From Rhexocercosporidium sp. MPI-PUGE-AT-0058 (Eukaryota > Ascomycota > Leotiomycetes > Helotiales): a DNA stretch of 64,000 bases. The translations under genes were made by a program, and so were the position numbers. The notes beneath the pieces are model-generated. The model did not search any database and was not told where the DNA came from. It saw only the letters and a program-made list of their open reading frames with translations. Of this stretch, positions 6,543-64,000 are shown piece by piece. Where the stretch lies: positions 186,001 through 250,000 of the forward strand of contig JAGTJL010000002.1 of assembly GCA_020746875.1 (NCBI GenBank), read 5' to 3'. Within the stretch, counting starts at the first letter, position 1. Each line of letters starts with the position of its first letter.

Positions 6543-8978
6543 GTTTGCGGTTAGAAGAGATTCGGTGACTGTCTGCGAAGCCGTCTTCGTGGTTTGTATT
6601 CTAAAGCCAGCAGATGGCGGGGTATGGTGTTGGAAAGCCGACAACTCGACTCAGCTCTCTGGTTGCTCTTGAGGATTCTTTGTGCGGCTGCGCCTTTGAA
6701 ATACGACGTCTTCGAATAAGAAAGAAATCGCCAACTGCAAGACGTCAACGTTGGTGGTTGGGAATGTTGTTTGTATGTGGAGAAAGGAACGAGGCGAGGC
6801 TGAGGTTAAATGGCAGTGGCAAAGGCTTCTGGAAGAATAATCAGGCTAGCCGCTAGGCTTAGCTCTGTTTTGGGCGAAGCGAGAGTCCCAAGTTCCACTG
6901 AGGCGGCCTCGTTGAGTCACAATCGAGTCACCTCCTATTATTATTACGGCCGGATTCGATGCAGGTCTGACAGCATAAAGGTCTGTACAAATAAGAGCAT
7001 TCGAGTTATCGAGAGCAATCGTACCCGGATACTCCTCCTGTATTACATAGGTCGGTATGTATGATGGGGCTTAGGTAGGCTGCAAGCATGGTGGAATTGG
7101 GAACAGGTGGTGTGTGTAGTTCTGTCATCAGCCTTGGCTTGGTTCGCGAGGCTGGGGGATATCCACGAGAGCCCAGCAAAAGGTCCAGGTACAACCTTGG
7201 GTTTGATTCCCCGAAGTCAATGTTATGAATGACTGAGGGACTTTGAACAGGTCCCAGGGATGAGGTAAAGAGAGTGTGATGGCTACTGTAGTTAATTTAG
7301 CCCGCTTTGGAGGCGGACGAGCGACAAGGACGGGATGCATTGCATTCTATATAGGCTACCTAAATTCGTGTCCAAATGCCGTGCCATCTTAGATTCTTTA
7401 AATTGTTTGTTCTGAAATGACTTGGAGATTTTAGACAAGCTCCGATGTAGGCGTAGTAAAGAGAGCGAAAGCGAGGATGAGTGATAATGATGAATGAGGC
7501 ATGCCCGTATCCTAACCGACCGAATTTCGTGCCTGGCGGTCAAGCCAAGCTTACCTACTCGCAGGTGAGCTTCCTTAAAGAAAATGACCTTGAACAATTC
7601 AGAGACTTAGATGGGCTCGGTTCCGATGCAGTGGATATACCAAATAGACCACTTATTTTCTTCCCTTCGCTGGAGGCGGATTGGAAGCAGGTTGGAGTAG
7701 ACCGATATTAGACGTTTACTTTCGCTGGAAGCAGAGGAGAATCTTTTTCTTGTAAGCAGCTATGGTGTCTGGTCAGACTATGAGCAGCACGATCAAATTC
7801 GTCCATTTTGGACTTGTGATCCGCGATGCGTAAGCCCGAAACTTGACCGAGATGAAACTCAAATATCTGCTTCATTTCCACAGATGCTGGGTCCATGCCC
7901 AGATAAGCGAAACTTGTCGCAATAGTGGAAGTTGAAAAAGCCTCACGACGGTGAGGCGATCCTTCCCGATCCGTTCAAGTATCTCAGGGTTTCGAACAGC
8001 CCGATTCCGAAGATGAATGAGCTAAGTCAGTTGACCTATTATTGCCTTTGCTGGAACTTCGGCCAGATGATTACCTCTGTCTCGTGTTTGGTAGGATTCG
8101 AAGGCAGCTTTTGAGGCGGAGATTATGACAGTCATTGGAGGAGCGCCTAATTGTTTTCCAAGTCAATCCAAAAAAAAAATAGCGATCTGCCCCTTCCCCT
8201 CAAATAGAGGTTGGCTAGTAATATTGAATACGAGGAGCAAGTCTGGGGTTGTGGAGTTGGTTGGATGGAGTGAGGATCCGGCTTAGGAGCATGATGAATA
8301 TAATTGAGCAGGTGGTGAGTGCATGGTATAAACTTCTCTGACGCCATTGCTATTGGAAATCTAGTTATAGAATGTTTATTGAGCTTCGGTGTTCATCTGT
8401 TATTCTGCCTGGAGATAAACCAGATGGCAATCGAAAACAGGATTGAGTATTCCAAGACAACGTAATGGCTCTCGGGTAAAGACTTAAAGTAGCAGAAATT
8501 GTTAATCCGCATTACGCAATGTATATATCCGAAATCTGGTTGGTACGAAGTCATTTCAGCGCACCTAAACATGCATTCTACCAGCTGACATCACTTACAC
8601 ATGCTCTGAGCAATACTACATACAGGTGTTTTCAAATCATACTTGTACGACTCTGACATCAACAATAGAATATGCTTGACCATCTTTTCCCGCTTGCCAT
8701 GCATCACTACTGCGTCAATCATTTTTGAGGCAAGATTATGGAGATATGTTTGCCCATTCCCTTCTTCGATATAACATATCACTCTTGCGTCAATTGTTTT
8801 AAGATAGGATTATAGAGGTGATGTAATGTTCAGAATCTCAAGGTCCAGAAGAGAGCTGACGATGCGTACGTCACTATAACGAAAATGATTTTTATATATA
8901 CTGGTTCCCAGTAGCCAGAAGGCATGAAACTTTCATCATCAAAGAAAATTCAACAGTACGGAAAACAAAAAAACAATC
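6543..8978. other. Long intergenic region, no gene seen
   Basis: About 2.4 kb between the divergent FAP1 and alcohol dehydrogenase genes. It contains scattered frames below 110 codons with no recognisable domain. The right part (from about 8400) is AT-rich and probably holds the dehydrogenase promoter. Confidence 0.6.
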
Positions 8979-58094: not shown

Positions 58095-59344
58095 TTACCC
58101 AGACTTTGCGGTCTTGTTTTTCTTGGCAGCGATCTGAGCCTCGGTGTGATGAGGCTCACGGGATTCGACCTCAACATCGCGGGGTCCCTTCTTTCCTGCC
58201 TTTGCATTCTTGGCCTGCATGTTATCAGATAAGTTCAGTACACGTATCGTATTGGAAGACTTACAGCAATCTGAGCTTCTGTGTGATGGGGCTCCCGAGA
58301 CTCGACAGCTCGAACTCCCTTGGCGGCCTTTGCTTTCTTGGCCTGAAGAATGTCAGCATGGTCACAGAAGAGATGAGAATCAAACGTACAGCGATCTGGG
58401 CTTCAGTGTGGTGACGAGTCTCAATGTCGCGGCTATTCTTCACACCTTTGGCTTTCTTCGCAGCAATCTGAGCTTCGGTGTGATGAGGCTCACGAGTCTC
58501 AAGAGCAGCGTCCTCAGCATCTTCAAGATCTTCTTGGTCCTCGAGATCTTCTTGATCCTCAAGAGCCTCGTCAGCGGCCAGATCACGACTATTCTTGCGG
58601 CCATTAGCCTTCTTTGCGGCGATCTGGGCTTCAGTGTGGTGACGAGTCTCAATGTTGCGGCTATTCTTCACACCTTTGGCTTTCTTCGCAGCAATCTGGG
58701 CTTCGGTATGGTGAGGTTCGCGGGTGTCAAGAGCAGCGTCCTCAGCATCTTCGAGATCTTCTTGGTCCTCAAGAGCCTCGTCAGCGGCCAGATCACGACT
58801 ACTCTTGCGGCCATTAGCCTTCTTTGCGGCGATCTGGGCTTCAGTGTGGTGACGAGTCTCGATGTCGCGGCTATTCTTCACACCTTTGGCTTTCTTCGCA
58901 GCAATCTGGGCTTCGGTATGGTGAGGTTCGCGGGTCTCAAGAGCAGCGTCCTCAGCATCTTCAAGATCTTCTTGGTCCTCAAGATCCTCCTGGTCTTCCA
59001 AAGCCTCATCAGCTGCAAGATCACGAGCCGTCTTGGATTTCGTGGTCTTTGCTTTCTTAGCAGCAATTTGAGCCTCAGTATGATGACGGGTCTCGAGGAT
59101 CTCAATGGATCTGCCGGCCTTTGCAGCCTTGTTCTTCTTGGCCTAAAGCGTGTTAGTGGCTGCTCTACAAAGGTGAATGTCCAGTTCTCCTTACGGCAAT
59201 TTGAGCCTCAGTGTGGTGTCTAGCCTCGACTGGTTCAACAGACCGGGCCAGGTCTTGGGATTGAGAAGGGATGGCGTAAGCCGATGCCAATGGCGCGGAG
59301 ACCAGAAGGCCGAAGGCAAGTAGTTTTGAAACGGAAGTATACAT
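58095..59344 (-). CDS. Secreted repeat protein, candidate RiPP/KEX2-processed precursor (10 x HHTEAQIA)
   Basis: Four exons, 59195-59344, 58390-59142, 58265-58342 and 58095-58214, give 366 residues; every intron is phase 0. A signal peptide (KLLAFGLLVSAPLASA) ends near residue 22. The octapeptide HHTEAQIA then occurs ten times. It is preceded by ETR, EAR, or REP and followed by AKKAKG, AKKANG or similar lysine-rich sequence. Acidic spacers (EDQEDL, EDAEDAALETRE) separate pairs of repeats. Each of the three introns falls directly after the Ala of QIA. This is the plan of KEX2-processed repeat proteins and of dikaritin-type RiPP precursors: secretion, repeated cores and basic cleavage sites. 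Two UstYa-like genes lie beside it. The repeats contain no Tyr, Phe, Trp or Cys. It is not an alpha-pheromone precursor, since no Trp/Cys core is present. Product and activity are unknown. Confidence 0.85.
58391..59071 (-). repeat. Higher-order tandem repeat in the precursor gene
   Basis: Within exon 2 a composite unit (two octapeptide repeats plus an acidic spacer) is tandemly repeated three times. Equivalent points fall at 58391, 58619 and 58829, so periods are 228 and 210 bp. The 18-bp difference is one extra acidic EDQEDL hexapeptide. Near-identical DNA between copies indicates recent expansion; the third copy diverges at its upstream end. Confidence 0.9.
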
Positions 59345-60600
59345 GATGAAGGAATGTAATAAAGACTGGCCGGCAGTGAAACGAATGTAGCGAGTAAGGA
59401 TTGAAAGAAGTGAAGGAAGGTGAATGGGCTGATGAGTGGATTTGAGAAGGTATGTAGGAGCGAGCCAAGTTCCTTTATACATCATGTCATTTTGGGACGG
59501 TGGAGCCAGAACTCACTTGAGGTTGCTTCAGTTCGGACGACAAGTGCTCGGCAAGGGCCACTGCTCAATCCACGACCAGCTCCGAGACTTCTCTTGCTTG
59601 ATGAGCCGCGAGGGTCGGCCATGACACTCGAAGCTGGCCTCGCATTTAGATCGACAGACAGCTCCTGGTTTAATCCGCCGGGTACTATTGGTTGTCAGAG
59701 CCCCTTGCTGTCAACATCCAGGTCAAGCTTTGTCGGCTAGTGGCCGTTCAAACACTAGCCACCGTCAGAACCTTCCGCGCTACTCCATTGAGGCTCCCCG
59801 ACAGTTTGATATTCAAGGATTAATTACTGGAGCCGACCCTGTCATGGCCAAGCGGGAAGGTTTAGTCTAAGAATGGTTTGGATGTGCAGTCTCAAGATAT
59901 CTTGAGGCATTAATTGCGCGATGGAATCATGGAATTCTTGGAAATGCGCCTGGAAATGGAACTCGAGCCGCGAAACCGAAACTCATCTCTTGGTGCTCGG
60001 TTTTGAGTTGAAGCTTGATTTTGACAGGTAGGAGCGATCCCAACTTGGGATGAAATGCCAATGCATGTTTTCAATGCATGGTACAGCGACAGGCTCGCAG
60101 GTCCATGCTACACTTCAATTCCATGCGAGCGAAATTGCTTGCGGCTGAGCAATTCAAACGCACCTTGGTGGAATATTGGCTGTGGTCGCTGGGACATTTG
60201 TTCTGTTTACGCTCCTCTTTACTCCATTGGGGCAATCCCGAGGCCCATTTTCTGGATCCTGTCGGTTGGGGTTTCATTGTGGGGTCTTTGAGGTTGGGAA
60301 TTGTTTCTTGTTGGCACTAGTGTCTAACCTGCTGTAGCCCACATTGAACCTAGCAATTGTTTCAAAGATCTGACGGCCGCAATCCTGGACTTGTGCATAA
60401 TTTTAAGACAGCGATCAGACGAGCCAGTCGCTTGCACTACTACCCCTATGATTCAGTGTTCGAACAATTGATATCCTTTCGTCAAAGATTCTCATCCCTC
60501 ATTTTTCCTTTCTCCAATTGCTTCTGGTAAAGTACATTCGTTCAAAATAATCATTCTTTTCTCTTCCAACTACCAGGAGTAGTATTTTTGCTGCGCAATT
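59345..60600. promoter_or_regulatory. Divergent intergenic region between precursor and first UstY gene
   Basis: About 1.26 kb with no gene of its own. It separates the divergently transcribed repeat precursor and the DUF3328 gene and so should hold both promoters. No defined regulator site was recognised. Confidence 0.6.
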
Positions 60601-61564
60601 ATGTCTTCCAAATACGAAGCCGTTCGAGACGATGAGAAGTTCCAAGAGCCGTTCCCTGGACGCTCGTCGACGTCAACTTCAGGTTCGACGCTGTTGGAGG
60701 ATGATGAGGATGTCAGACTCAGTCAGCCGCGGCGGAAGTTCACTATGAGATGGATGTGGCTGGTTCATGCTGCGCTACTTTCACTCTCATTCACGATGTT
60801 TGTTGGTGCATTCTTCACAAGAGCGTCAACTTTGGAGCATGTGAAGAAATTTTCTGCCTATTGTAAGTTCGAATTCAATTGATCGTAGAGAGAAGATTTT
60901 AACAGATGTAGCGCCTGCCGTAGAAGCTGTTGAGTACCAGAAAATTAAGTTCAATGCTACTATGGGAGAGGGTTCACCATATGTTGGAAAGGGTCCAGAA
61001 GTTGACAAAGCGTGGCATGCTATTTCTTACGATAGTAAGTTAGTTCCAAATATATCTCAGCTCAGACACTAACAATTATTAGTCGGAGACCAAGTTATCA
61101 CAGATGAGGAACTGGAGATCATTGGAATGCCAAAGTCACACTTGAGAGCTACGAATCCCAAGACCGGTGTTGAAGGATACCGAGTTGGCTTGGAAGTGTT
61201 CCACCAACTCCACTGCATCAATTTGCTCCGTCAAGTCACATACAAAGATTACTACATGGAGGTTGGCAATGGCAACTTTGCTGGTACTCAGGAAGATCTA
61301 CAGATGCATACCGGTAAGCCAGCAAGATTTAGTTATTTCTTAATATCTTACTGACTGGTACCAGATCACTGTCTTGAAATTCTCAGAATGAACGTTGAGT
61401 GTACTGCGGACATTGGTGTTTTCACTTTTTACATGATGGATGGCGATCCACTTCCATGGCCAGAACTCAACTCCATTCACCAGTGCCGGAACTTTGATAG
61501 AGTTAAGGAGTGGGCAATCGACAACTCTGTAGGTAATATGGAGCGGGGAGATGTAAATCCATAG
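60601..61564 (+). CDS. UstYa-like (DUF3328) protein
   Basis: Four exons, 60601-60862, 60906-61034, 61083-61313 and 61365-61564, give 273 residues; introns are 43-51 bp. A Ser/acid-rich cytosolic tail leads to one membrane segment (residues 51-72, WMWLVHAALLSLSFTMFVGA). The lumenal part carries both family signatures: HQLHC at 171-175 and HTDHC at 206-210, with YKDYY between. The C-terminus has the usual CRNFDRVKEWA helix. UstY proteins are metal- or heme-type oxidative tailoring enzymes in fungal peptide pathways: cyclisation in ustiloxin, asperipin and phomopsin, hydroxylation or chlorination in cyclochlorotine. Next to the repeat precursor it is the likely modifying enzyme. No defect seen. 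Confidence 0.93.
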
Positions 61565-63517
61565 ATTTAATCCCTAATACATCTCTGTACAATCATCCAC
61601 GAAATATTCAAAATTTCCCTTGCTCGCAGAGGTTCTTCTTGGAGGCTCATTATTTGATCCCCCCATATCAAGATTAGCACCTCCACTGTGAATGAAAGTC
61701 TAGATAACAGCCTCAAGTTACATTTGTCTTGCACCCATAACACATTTTCCCGTCCTCACCGAATATAAGCTTAATAGCCATCCCATAAGGCTCATTTCTC
61801 TTCGATTGTCTCCCAGTAACTAATCAAATTATCCTCTTACGTACTTTTCAAACTTCACAAGTGTAAGTGGGTCTCTCTCAGCCTGGACTTGGTCTCCTAC
61901 AAAGCTCCATGTACCCTAATCTCCTGCCCTTGGAAGTCTCCTTCATTCAACCAGATAACACTACCGTATTCGTCTATACGCCCAGCAGCACTGATAGCGC
62001 CCGTGGGGACTCGGGTAAAATATCCAATTTAGTCTAATCAAGGTCTTCCTCTTGAGACGTTAGTTTTCGGGGAATTTGTTTCTTCCTCCGAGATTGCTGT
62101 CAAGTGTCATCCCAACTCCCATTCGTGTGTGGAACTAGCATGTTTAAGGACCGAATCTGTGGGTGTCAAGAGCGCATTGAGGGAGAGATGGTCTGATGTC
62201 CCGAGTTGAGATGAGCTCGGGGGTTGACTCCTATGATGGTTAGTTTGCTACTACCGTATCGCGTGGGCAAGCGCTGAAGGCATTTGGGTGGAGGTAGCTT
62301 GAATTCTAGGGTTTCTGCGGATTATTGTCCGTGACATTTATCGCTTCTGTTATTTGATTTTACAAATGTGTGGAGATTTTCTGGTTGTCCAGCTCATTCT
62401 ATTCAAGATGCTCTCTTGATTTGTCAGTGCCAGCTCTTCCCATACTCCTGAAAGTCCATAGAACCCGTCCTCGCAAAAACACAACACATCCTGCGTCGCA
62501 AAATGAACAAATCCGCCAAGGGGCGTCGTCTAAAGCGGCCCAATCACCGCTGCATCCCCACAGTCGCCGGCACCAATTCCCCTGTCTAAGTGTCCCTGCA
62601 ACTTGGCACATTTCTCGTCTCAGCTTGCCGCTCTATCCACCACATGCTAGATGCGAGGTGATCGACGCTAGGTTACAGGGCTTCACTTGCCCGTTCGAAC
62701 AATGTGAACTTTCGACTTCTGAAAACTAGTGAAACTGGATAGCTGAGAAAAGGGAAACAATTGTTATCCATTGGCGAGAACCTGATTGATGATCGAAGTA
62801 TTTGAAGCTGTCAGCCTTCTCAATGTAAGGTTAAAAGTCCGGTTAAATATGAAAGTAAACACTACAGATTAAAAGCAGGCAAGTTTCTCAGTGGGCAAGT
62901 CTCGCTCATCATGGGCGGAGTGCACTAATAAGCGAGGTAAAAGGGGCAGCGCCAGAGAAATCAGCGCCAACCGTCGCCTCAGCGCATAGACCTCAATGGA
63001 CATGAGGACGGACAACCAATCTAATTTTGGCGTCTCCTTTTGTCAAGGAAAGCAAGCCGCCTTCGAAAAGCTTAAGCTCCTGGCCGGCTGGCTTGGCCAG
63101 AAGGTCGAGACGGGTTCAGATGGCATCGATCGAGGGATCGCCTGAAACCAGATGGCATTTGCTTGGGAGCAAGCCCACGCGACCATGCTGGATACCAGAT
63201 GAAACCTGCTGTAACCTCTCCTTTGGGTGTGTGACCGAGTGATTCCATGCGCGTGTATGATAGCCCCCTAGCGTAGGGAGAAACCTTCCGCCTCTCCCTG
63301 GACAGCTCCTAGGGACAATCGTCTGAAAGTTGTCCGCTGTCAATCAGTCTCACCACATCCCCATCGTTGTGTTTGTTTGATATTATCAACAGTCTGGCAC
63401 TGCATTTTTCTCGTACTGCAAGAACTGGATTCTTCACTTTCTGGAACTGGTTTCTCATCACGTACTTTCTTGCTAATTTTGGTTCCTTTAAATTGAACAT
63501 CACATTCGTTTATTACC
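61565..63517. other. Intergenic between two UstY genes, no gene seen
   Basis: About 1.95 kb with only short frames. It contains the terminator of the first UstY gene and the promoter of the second; a further small gene cannot be excluded. Confidence 0.55.
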
Positions 63518-64000
63518 ATGGCTCTTTTACATCATGAGAAGCAGAGCAGATATGCTACACTCGACGACGATGAAGTCATGTCCATCGACCTTGAGAACGA
63601 CAACGACCATGACTCCGATACTACGCTCGCCTCAGATGGATTCCTCAGCAGTAAAAAGTCCGCACTTCGCCATTCTAGATATGAACACAGTTCTCGGTTA
63701 TCAACGGTGTTGACGTGGATAAGATGGGGTGTGATTGTATTCTTTCAGGGCATCATCATCATGCTCTTACTACCAACCAGCGGAGTTCTGAGTGATGGCT
63801 GGGCTGGACTGGGATCGGCGAGTGGATGGACGCAAGAAAAGACCGAGACGGGTGGCGATATCAATGGGCTCTACATTCCAAGTGAGTATAGCGATTCCAT
63901 GGACCTGATACAGTGACTGACATGAACAGCGAGTCACAAGTGGACACTACTTACACCCGATGAAGAGATGTTCGTGCCAAACATGACGACCAACGATAAC
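63518..64000 (+). CDS. Second UstYa-like (DUF3328) protein, cut by the window edge
   Basis: Exon 1 is 63518-63881; a 48-bp intron (GTGAGT..AACAG) leads to exon 2 from 63930, still open at 64000. The N-terminus is acidic, with HDSDTTLASDGFL, and precedes one membrane segment (about residues 65-86, TVLTWIRWGVIVFFQGIIIM). The lumenal start (SHKWTLLTPDEEMFVPN) is of the kind seen before the first HxxHC motif in this family. That motif lies beyond the window, so assignment rests on the N-terminal plan and on context. Dikaritin clusters usually hold two UstY proteins, which fits. Confidence 0.75.

Follow-up and report, generated by a model that had tools for sequence, protein, structure and literature searches.

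The DNA analysed here, referred to throughout as the window, is a stretch of 64,000 nucleotides (positions 186001-250000 of contig C12) from a 62.7 Mb assembly that is fungal judging from its gene content. Near its right-hand end lies a gene for a repeat protein, called the precursor below, together with two genes of the UstYa family (DUF3328, PF11807), UstYa-1 and UstYa-2. An earlier reading of the window (the original prediction) had placed a new dikaritin-like cluster here, that is, a pathway for a ribosomally synthesized and post-translationally modified peptide (RiPP) in which a repeated, Kex2-cut precursor is modified by UstYa-type proteins. Gene models at the locus were built from GT-AG introns and reading frame, and the contig was followed beyond the window for 49 kb rightward and 10 kb leftward. 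Judging from these models, the precursor, UstYa-1, and UstYa-2 look like a small three-gene locus, because the only tyrosinase (PF00264) match on the contig, at 3.42 Mb (C12:3422742), is more than 3 Mb away.

The precursor gene and its UstYa neighbours

The precursor is encoded on the minus strand in four exons (59344-59195, 59142-58390, 58342-58265, and 58214-58095, the last with the stop codon), which GT...AG introns separate and which join into a single spliced frame of 366 aa. Its N-terminus resembles a signal peptide (MYTSVSKLLAFGLLVSAPLASAYA, residues 1-24, 59273..59344, minus strand) by sequence and hydropathy, with a hydropathy peak at residues 8-26 and small residues near position 24, the cleavage point being placed by eye. 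Ten copies of HHTEAQIAAK follow (58132..59218, minus strand), whose HH codons start, going leftward, at 59218, 59085, 58923, 58851, 58713, 58641, 58485, 58413, 58288, and 58151. Copies 1, 8, and 9 are each interrupted directly after HHTEAQIA by an intron (52, 47, and 50 nt), and since all three introns are in phase 0 and fall at the same codon, the array probably grew out of a one-copy exon. The protein contains 20 histidines, is K/E-rich, lacks Trp and Cys, and matched no Pfam family; there is no Tyr in HHTEAQIAAK. A degenerate DNA pattern for HHTEAQ-I/M has ten matches in the whole assembly, all of them in the precursor gene (reversed-pattern control, 0), and the precursor protein searched against the genome gave four matches, all exons of the gene itself.

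The HHTEAQIAAK block is under purifying selection at the protein level. Over positions 1-10 counted from HH, the protein is identical in all ten copies, which are written in eight DNA versions; the block has a minimum of 12 synonymous and 0 non-synonymous codon changes. For the eight codons behind it the corresponding counts are 15 and 16, and for the four codons ahead of HH they are 10 and 8. If the minimum changes are treated as independent, though the copies are related by duplication, the block differs from the eight codons behind it with Fisher p 0.0013, and the probability that all 12 block changes are synonymous is 8e-9 to 5e-7 for transition/transversion weights of 1 to 8. RiPP repeats usually pair a recognition segment with a core. 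HHTEAQIAAK could then be a docking or follower segment, with the product coming from an intervening stretch such as the acidic DLAADEALEDQEDLEDAEDAALETR block, which is itself repeated three times. We consider this improbable, as the acidic block is variable in length and stands ahead of only three of the ten copies, whereas HHTEAQIAAK is present in all ten and constrained as protein; a second His-His precursor in the genome, described below, likewise has HH at its cut site but no acidic block.

UstYa-1 (plus strand, 273 aa, exons 60601-60862, 60906-61034, 61083-61313, and 61365-61564) matches PF11807 with E 4.3e-54 (184 bits) and carries HQLHC at 171 and HTDHC at 206. It is arranged head-to-head with the precursor gene, and the divergent pair shares an intergenic region of 1256 bp (59345..60600, from the gene ends). 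UstYa-2 (plus strand, 308 aa) runs from 63518 to the window-equivalent position 64584 (C12:250584), with 63518..64000 inside the window and the end 584 bases past it; it matches PF11807 with E 1.5e-16 (61 bits) and carries HALHC at 196 and HAAHC at 227. The strongest hydrophobic segment is near the N-terminus in both proteins (residues 54-72 in UstYa-1, 72-90 in UstYa-2). UstYa-1 compared with the sequences in the PDB gave no match at E up to 10. The gene inventory of the original prediction is borne out by these models: ten exact HHTEAQIA copies occupy one spliced minus-strand frame, although the invariant block is actually HHTEAQIAAK; the repeat protein looks to be of the secreted type, judging from its hydrophobic N-terminus; an intact DUF3328 protein with both HxxHC motifs is present; and what had been described as a second DUF3328-like start belongs to a complete gene, UstYa-2, of which it is the 5' portion.

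Plant BURP cyclases make histidine crosslinks. The four-histidine plane of CctR, a DUF3328 hydroxylase, has been likened to these enzymes; its HxxHC(x)nHxxHC motif binds two coppers per monomer and is needed for O2-dependent C-H hydroxylation (PMC12435403; this and the papers below are cited from partial texts). UstYa-1 and UstYa-2 have the N-terminal hydrophobic anchor and the HxxHC(x)nHxxHC motif in common with CctR, but the substrate of CctR is a non-ribosomal cyclic peptide, and copper binding has been measured for CctR, whereas for the window proteins it is suggested by the motif. A DUF3328-based definition of dikaritins (PMC12048977) calls for a precursor with a leader and repeated cores and, close to it, a UstYa protein that carries two HxxHC motifs, and both are found at the locus. 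The original five-gene definition has a tyrosinase in the cluster and does not extend to it; that definition also counts a methyltransferase, transporter, or peptidase gene among the cluster's members.

Processing sites and the predicted product

The extended Kex2 motif has Arg at P1, favours an aliphatic residue at P4, and has Arg, Thr, Pro, Glu, and Ile as its best alternatives at P2, while Asp at P3 is unfavourable (PMC8528282, a review of effector processing). Each of the ten copies in the precursor is preceded by VEAR, LETR, LDTR, IETR, or VESR, so that an aliphatic P4 is found at 10/10 of the arginines preceding copies compared with 0/12 of the other arginines counted, the copies being duplicates and not independent. 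P2 is Thr before seven copies and Ser or Ala before three, and P3 is Asp in one. Glu-Pro stands between Arg and HH in five copies, and KK follows nine. Xaa-Pro dipeptides are a signature of Ste13-type processing (PMC6339444), and some products of mushroom KEX2-processed repeat proteins (KEPs) are apparently cut after a single Arg (PMC9769878). The genome has one match to the Kex2-type P-domain and DPPIV_N matches at two places. KEPs as defined by Umemura 2020 (PMC7329392) have an ER signal peptide, for which the hydrophobic N-terminus of the precursor is a candidate, and three or more repeats, each 8 aa or longer and none above 100 aa, between KR, KK, RK, or RR. The repeat criterion was applied here by site cutting alone. 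Cutting at KK and RK brings the precursor within it, yielding ten fragments of 21-52 aa that each contain HHTEAQIAA, plus three short fragments.

Our preferred reading, to which we give a probability of roughly 0.7, is that this is a minimal, tyrosinase-free UstYa-type RiPP locus from which HHTEAQIAA would be released and oxidised by two copper enzymes. The precursor would enter the secretory pathway, where Kex2 would cut ahead of each copy, after the Arg of [L/I/V][E/D][T/S/A]R, and again at the KK that follows. Glu-Pro would be stripped from five copies by a dipeptidyl peptidase of the Ste13 type and the lysines trimmed by Kex1, and nine or all ten copies would end as the same nonapeptide, HHTEAQIAA, whose N-terminal His-His would be free. 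By analogy with CctR, UstYa-1 and UstYa-2 would be membrane-anchored, lumenal binuclear copper enzymes that oxidise this peptide, most plausibly by hydroxylation or by forming a crosslink in which a histidine ring replaces the tyrosine of ustiloxin. Computed [M+H]+ values for HHTEAQIAA are 977.480 for the linear form, 975.464 with one crosslink, and 993.475 with hydroxylation. We infer the cleavage, the trimming, and all of the peptide chemistry from sequence.

The Glu-Pro dipeptides in five of the ten copies could also be taken to mean that the precursor yields an unmodified, linear His-His peptide hormone similar to an alpha-pheromone, the UstYa genes acting elsewhere or having lost their role. 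The Ste13-type signature has been associated with pheromone-like peptides and is reported to be missing where the precursor gives a toxic cyclic tetrapeptide or an epichloecyclin (PMC6339444). The lack of Tyr in the core would suit such a hormone, as would the similar rates of HH with and without DUF3328 (5.7 vs 3.9%) in the Umemura survey, in which 22% of 7878 KEPs go with DUF3328 genes (PMC7329392). Two intact UstYa genes adjoin the precursor, however, one of them head-to-head. Long XA/XP (Ste13-like) runs also precede the core in two UstYa-linked precursors of this genome (L020, ~7300-8350, plus strand, EPEADAAPEPAAEAE; L023, 7220-7414, plus strand, EAEAEPVAEAHAE), and the signature therefore does not separate the two classes here. 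The core of ascomycete alpha-pheromones contains Trp/Cys, and the precursor, with neither residue, Glu-Pro in half of its copies, and two UstYa neighbours, does not fit that pattern. In the survey, moreover, DUF3328 genes neighbour 57 of 64 members of the di-histidine type G-3 and 45 of 49 of G-8, but only three putative fungal pheromones and, in the part of the text available, no yeast alpha-factor (PMC7329392). An unmodified hormone is, in our judgment, unlikely.

Related loci in the genome and the flanks of the locus

A second His-His precursor, with three HHKGAGGG... repeats, is found on contig C1 (locus L019, G000:C1:3546501-3556500, 8194-8714, plus strand). HHK follows LAVR once and NNKR twice, and because the same start thus stands behind one monobasic L-x-x-R and two KR sites, we infer that the monobasic sites ahead of HH in the window precursor are cut. 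A UstYa-1-like gene stands head-to-head with this precursor too, and the locus has two UstYa genes. UstYa-1 and its C1 counterpart are reciprocal best matches in the genome, exon by exon (forward search 6e-33, next locus 9e-19; reverse 2.7e-22, next 1.4e-4), and the C1 locus is also the best genome match of UstYa-2. Both precursors have HH directly behind the predicted cut site and phase-0 introns, one of which lies just after HHK in C1. The C1 locus differs in its longer, Gly/Ala-rich, and otherwise unrelated core, in having KR before two of three repeats, and in the tyrosinase and M28-type peptidase frame in its vicinity. The second precursor also bears on the idea that the window gene has nothing to do with UstYa chemistry and encodes a secreted protein, rich in His and in K/E, with a structural or metal-binding role. 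The 20 histidines of its product, the biased composition, the secreted-type N-terminus, and the lack of a Pfam match would agree with this idea. Such a protein would hardly account for the strict constraint over 10 aa, the processing-like flanks, the UstYa neighbours, and a His-His precursor with KR beside a related UstYa gene on C1, and we regard it as the least probable of the explanations considered.

Exon-level UstYa matches number 57 in the genome and were grouped by hand into 23 loci; at three of these, a tyrosinase match lies no more than 15 kb away. One 10-kb stretch was examined at each of 16 loci (the window and L019-L033), mostly picked by similarity to UstYa-1 or UstYa-2 and not at random; the other seven of the 23 loci (C23:2574k, C15:54k, C1:604k, C23:235k, C58:1635k, C56:1036k, and C6:1442k) lie outside this set, and the arrays at C2, C34, and C7:1250k are covered partly. 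Ten 10-kb stretches of one contig, five from the flanks and five from the window, served as controls. A repeat array, defined as at least five repeated hexapeptides, was present at 11/16 UstYa loci and in 0/10 controls (p 0.0007); the counts were 11/16 and 1/10 at a threshold of three, and 12/16 and 3/10 (p 0.043) at a threshold of two. Eight other arrays contain Tyr or Trp, namely DYGKYG (L020), GVAEVWANW (L021), IYGQAH (L022), ENLYFRGYKINK (L023), ALGNYYE (L024), QGYLIKYPNAEEESS (L025), QYLAAFAEDEA (L029), and YVHGSYGYD (L031). The AGRTVGEIFEEKQRLADEKGIAVDRKLKTRE repeat at L030 (2790-3050, minus strand), with no clear Kex2 layout and no Tyr core, was scored positive by rule. At C34:2592-2603k and C2:2370-2390k, several UstYa genes per ~10-20 kb accompany Tyr repeat precursors (YVHGSYGYD; QGYLIKYPNAEEESS). 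In L021 (3043-3690, minus strand), the GVAEVWANW frame breaks after several copies at spots that look intron-like by eye, resembling the window precursor.

Around the window locus, the frames of the right flank were listed up to about 85 kb and again from about 91 kb (window coordinates), and the left 10 kb entered the repeat survey. Among 20 selected frames from both sides, Pfam searches found no dikaritin tailoring gene near the locus, although a small gene could be missed, and the ten scanned frames nearest to it, again selected ones, include no methyltransferase, transporter, or peptidase. Frames on the left matched MSS51_C, Pex2/Pex12 with RING, EXS, MBOAT, a dehydrogenase, a subtilase, and others; those on the right matched ankyrin, kynureninase, indoleamine 2,3-dioxygenase, and a fungal transcription factor domain; 3/20 matched no family. 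The original prediction had seen no tyrosinase, methyltransferase, or peptidase gene in the window. For peptidases this needs correcting, as the subtilase gene lies within it at 13.8-16.9 kb, but at more than 40 kb from the locus. Of the two options then offered, a minimal locus or one continuing to the right, the first agrees with our results and the second, a larger cluster rightward, is unsupported, as scanning on that side gave ankyrin-type, kynureninase, indoleamine 2,3-dioxygenase, and transcription factor domain frames, next to a frame that by eye is transposon-like. The kynureninase (aminotransferase V + KYNU_C) adjoins the indoleamine 2,3-dioxygenase frame (L009, window-equivalent 68730-71923), and a hydrolase-like frame was seen by eye at 72.5-73.3 kb; a tryptophan-kynurenine gene group thus lies beside the putative RiPP locus. 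Further on (L010, window-equivalent 74150-76105) are what by eye are pieces of a pogo-like DDE transposase, one of which was scanned and had no Pfam match.

Several observations weigh against reading the window locus as a minimal UstYa-type RiPP system. The precursor contains no KR and no RR, and the Kex2-cut precursor of the original prediction can be upheld only through KK, RK, and monobasic Arg sites. Behind copy 9, KK is replaced by KN. The Ala or Ser at P2 before 3/10 copies is outside the alternatives given in the available text of PMC8528282, where the Asp found at P3 in one copy is unfavourable. The precursor/UstYa-1 intergenic region and the region upstream of UstYa-2 have no word of at least 12 bases in common, and co-regulation through shared promoter words was not used as evidence; common 10-mers number 15 against a null of 5.7 (2/200 shuffles reach 15), and 11-mers are at the null. 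A comparison of this kind with the C1 promoter gave nothing distinctive (seven 10-mers, null 3.7, 26/200 shuffles). A specific pairing of UstYa-2 with the UstYa-2-like gene on C1 was rejected, since L029 scores higher (74 vs 62 bits), and in the reverse search from the C1 partner three other loci rank above UstYa-2. Finally, 5/16 UstYa loci (L026, L027, L028, L032, and L033) have no repeat array in their 10-kb stretch, and the difference between loci and controls is lost if a single repeated hexapeptide is enough to count (13/16 and 6/10, p 0.37).

Relation to described systems and meaning

The seven abundant DUF3328-associated KEP types of the Umemura survey comprise four with Tyr, P-3 with Trp, and the di-histidine types G-3 and G-8 (PMC7329392). 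These last two resemble the window precursor in their signal peptide (signal-peptide-like in the window precursor), di-histidine tandem repeats, and nearby DUF3328 genes; they are listed under Ascomycota and set apart from the Tyr types. The comparison is with their description in the text, where no product is given for them. Venturia inaequalis is reported to have nine dikaritin clusters (PMC9632046), and Sclerotinia sclerotiorum to have four pairs of adjacent DUF3328 genes (PMC6941272). Because di-histidine types are already in the survey, and paired UstYa genes and several clusters per genome are ordinary, the window locus is most likely, by its gene content, a member of a kind already surveyed and not a new kind of locus. 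A dikaritin-like pathway, as first proposed, is thus consistent with a precursor next to two UstYa genes, but in view of G-3, G-8, and the C1 locus the claim of novelty does not extend to the kind of cluster.

For the core, which the original prediction did not recognise from any described product, the claim is supported: the HHTEAQ string does not occur in the literature that we searched. By title or abstract start, EAQIA pointed to no fungal-peptide paper in that literature, and no product with a His-His core was recognised among the matches listed for dikaritins, KEPs, DUF3328, and UstYa. The available text of Le Marquer 2019 gives other conserved motifs, none with HH (PMC6339444). Ustiloxin and phomopsin resemble the window locus in having at least two UstYa genes and a repeat precursor with a signal peptide (in the window, a signal-peptide-like N-terminus), but they have Tyr-Ile cores, a required tyrosinase, and further tailoring genes; neither a Tyr-Ile core nor such genes were seen at the window locus. 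The asperipin-2a locus likewise combines a DUF3328 enzyme with a repeat precursor, although it has one DUF3328 gene and not two; the core, FYYTGY, is Tyr-rich, and we know of no tyrosinase requirement for this product. In the victorin pathway, UstYa enzymes go with a repeat precursor whose core is Tyr-free; it differs from the window locus in this core (GLKLAF), its KR sites, and its further tailoring genes.

More tentatively, and with odds that we put clearly below even, the His-His precursors and their UstYa-1-type partners may form a distinct, tyrosine-independent dikaritin subclass, with two copper enzymes acting on an N-terminal His-His, that makes either RiPPs with histidine crosslinks or a secreted peptide that binds copper. 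The copper-binding version is suggested because both precursors put HH directly after a predicted cut, where the amine and the imidazoles would bind copper, and because genes for copper enzymes adjoin them. Histidine crosslinks in ribosomal peptides have been called rare, with a bacterial example (PMC10206099).

The best-known products of UstYa enzymes are tyrosine-based. With a Tyr-free His-His core, two UstYa genes, and no tyrosinase, the locus would offer a small and clean setting for studying how binuclear copper UstYa enzymes alone act on a peptide, and exact masses are predicted for it. If our reading is correct, it would give a chemistry to the His-His precursor types that the survey lists without a product, and if the subclass is real as well, it may lead to the first fungal histidine-crosslinked RiPPs or to a secreted copper-binding peptide.

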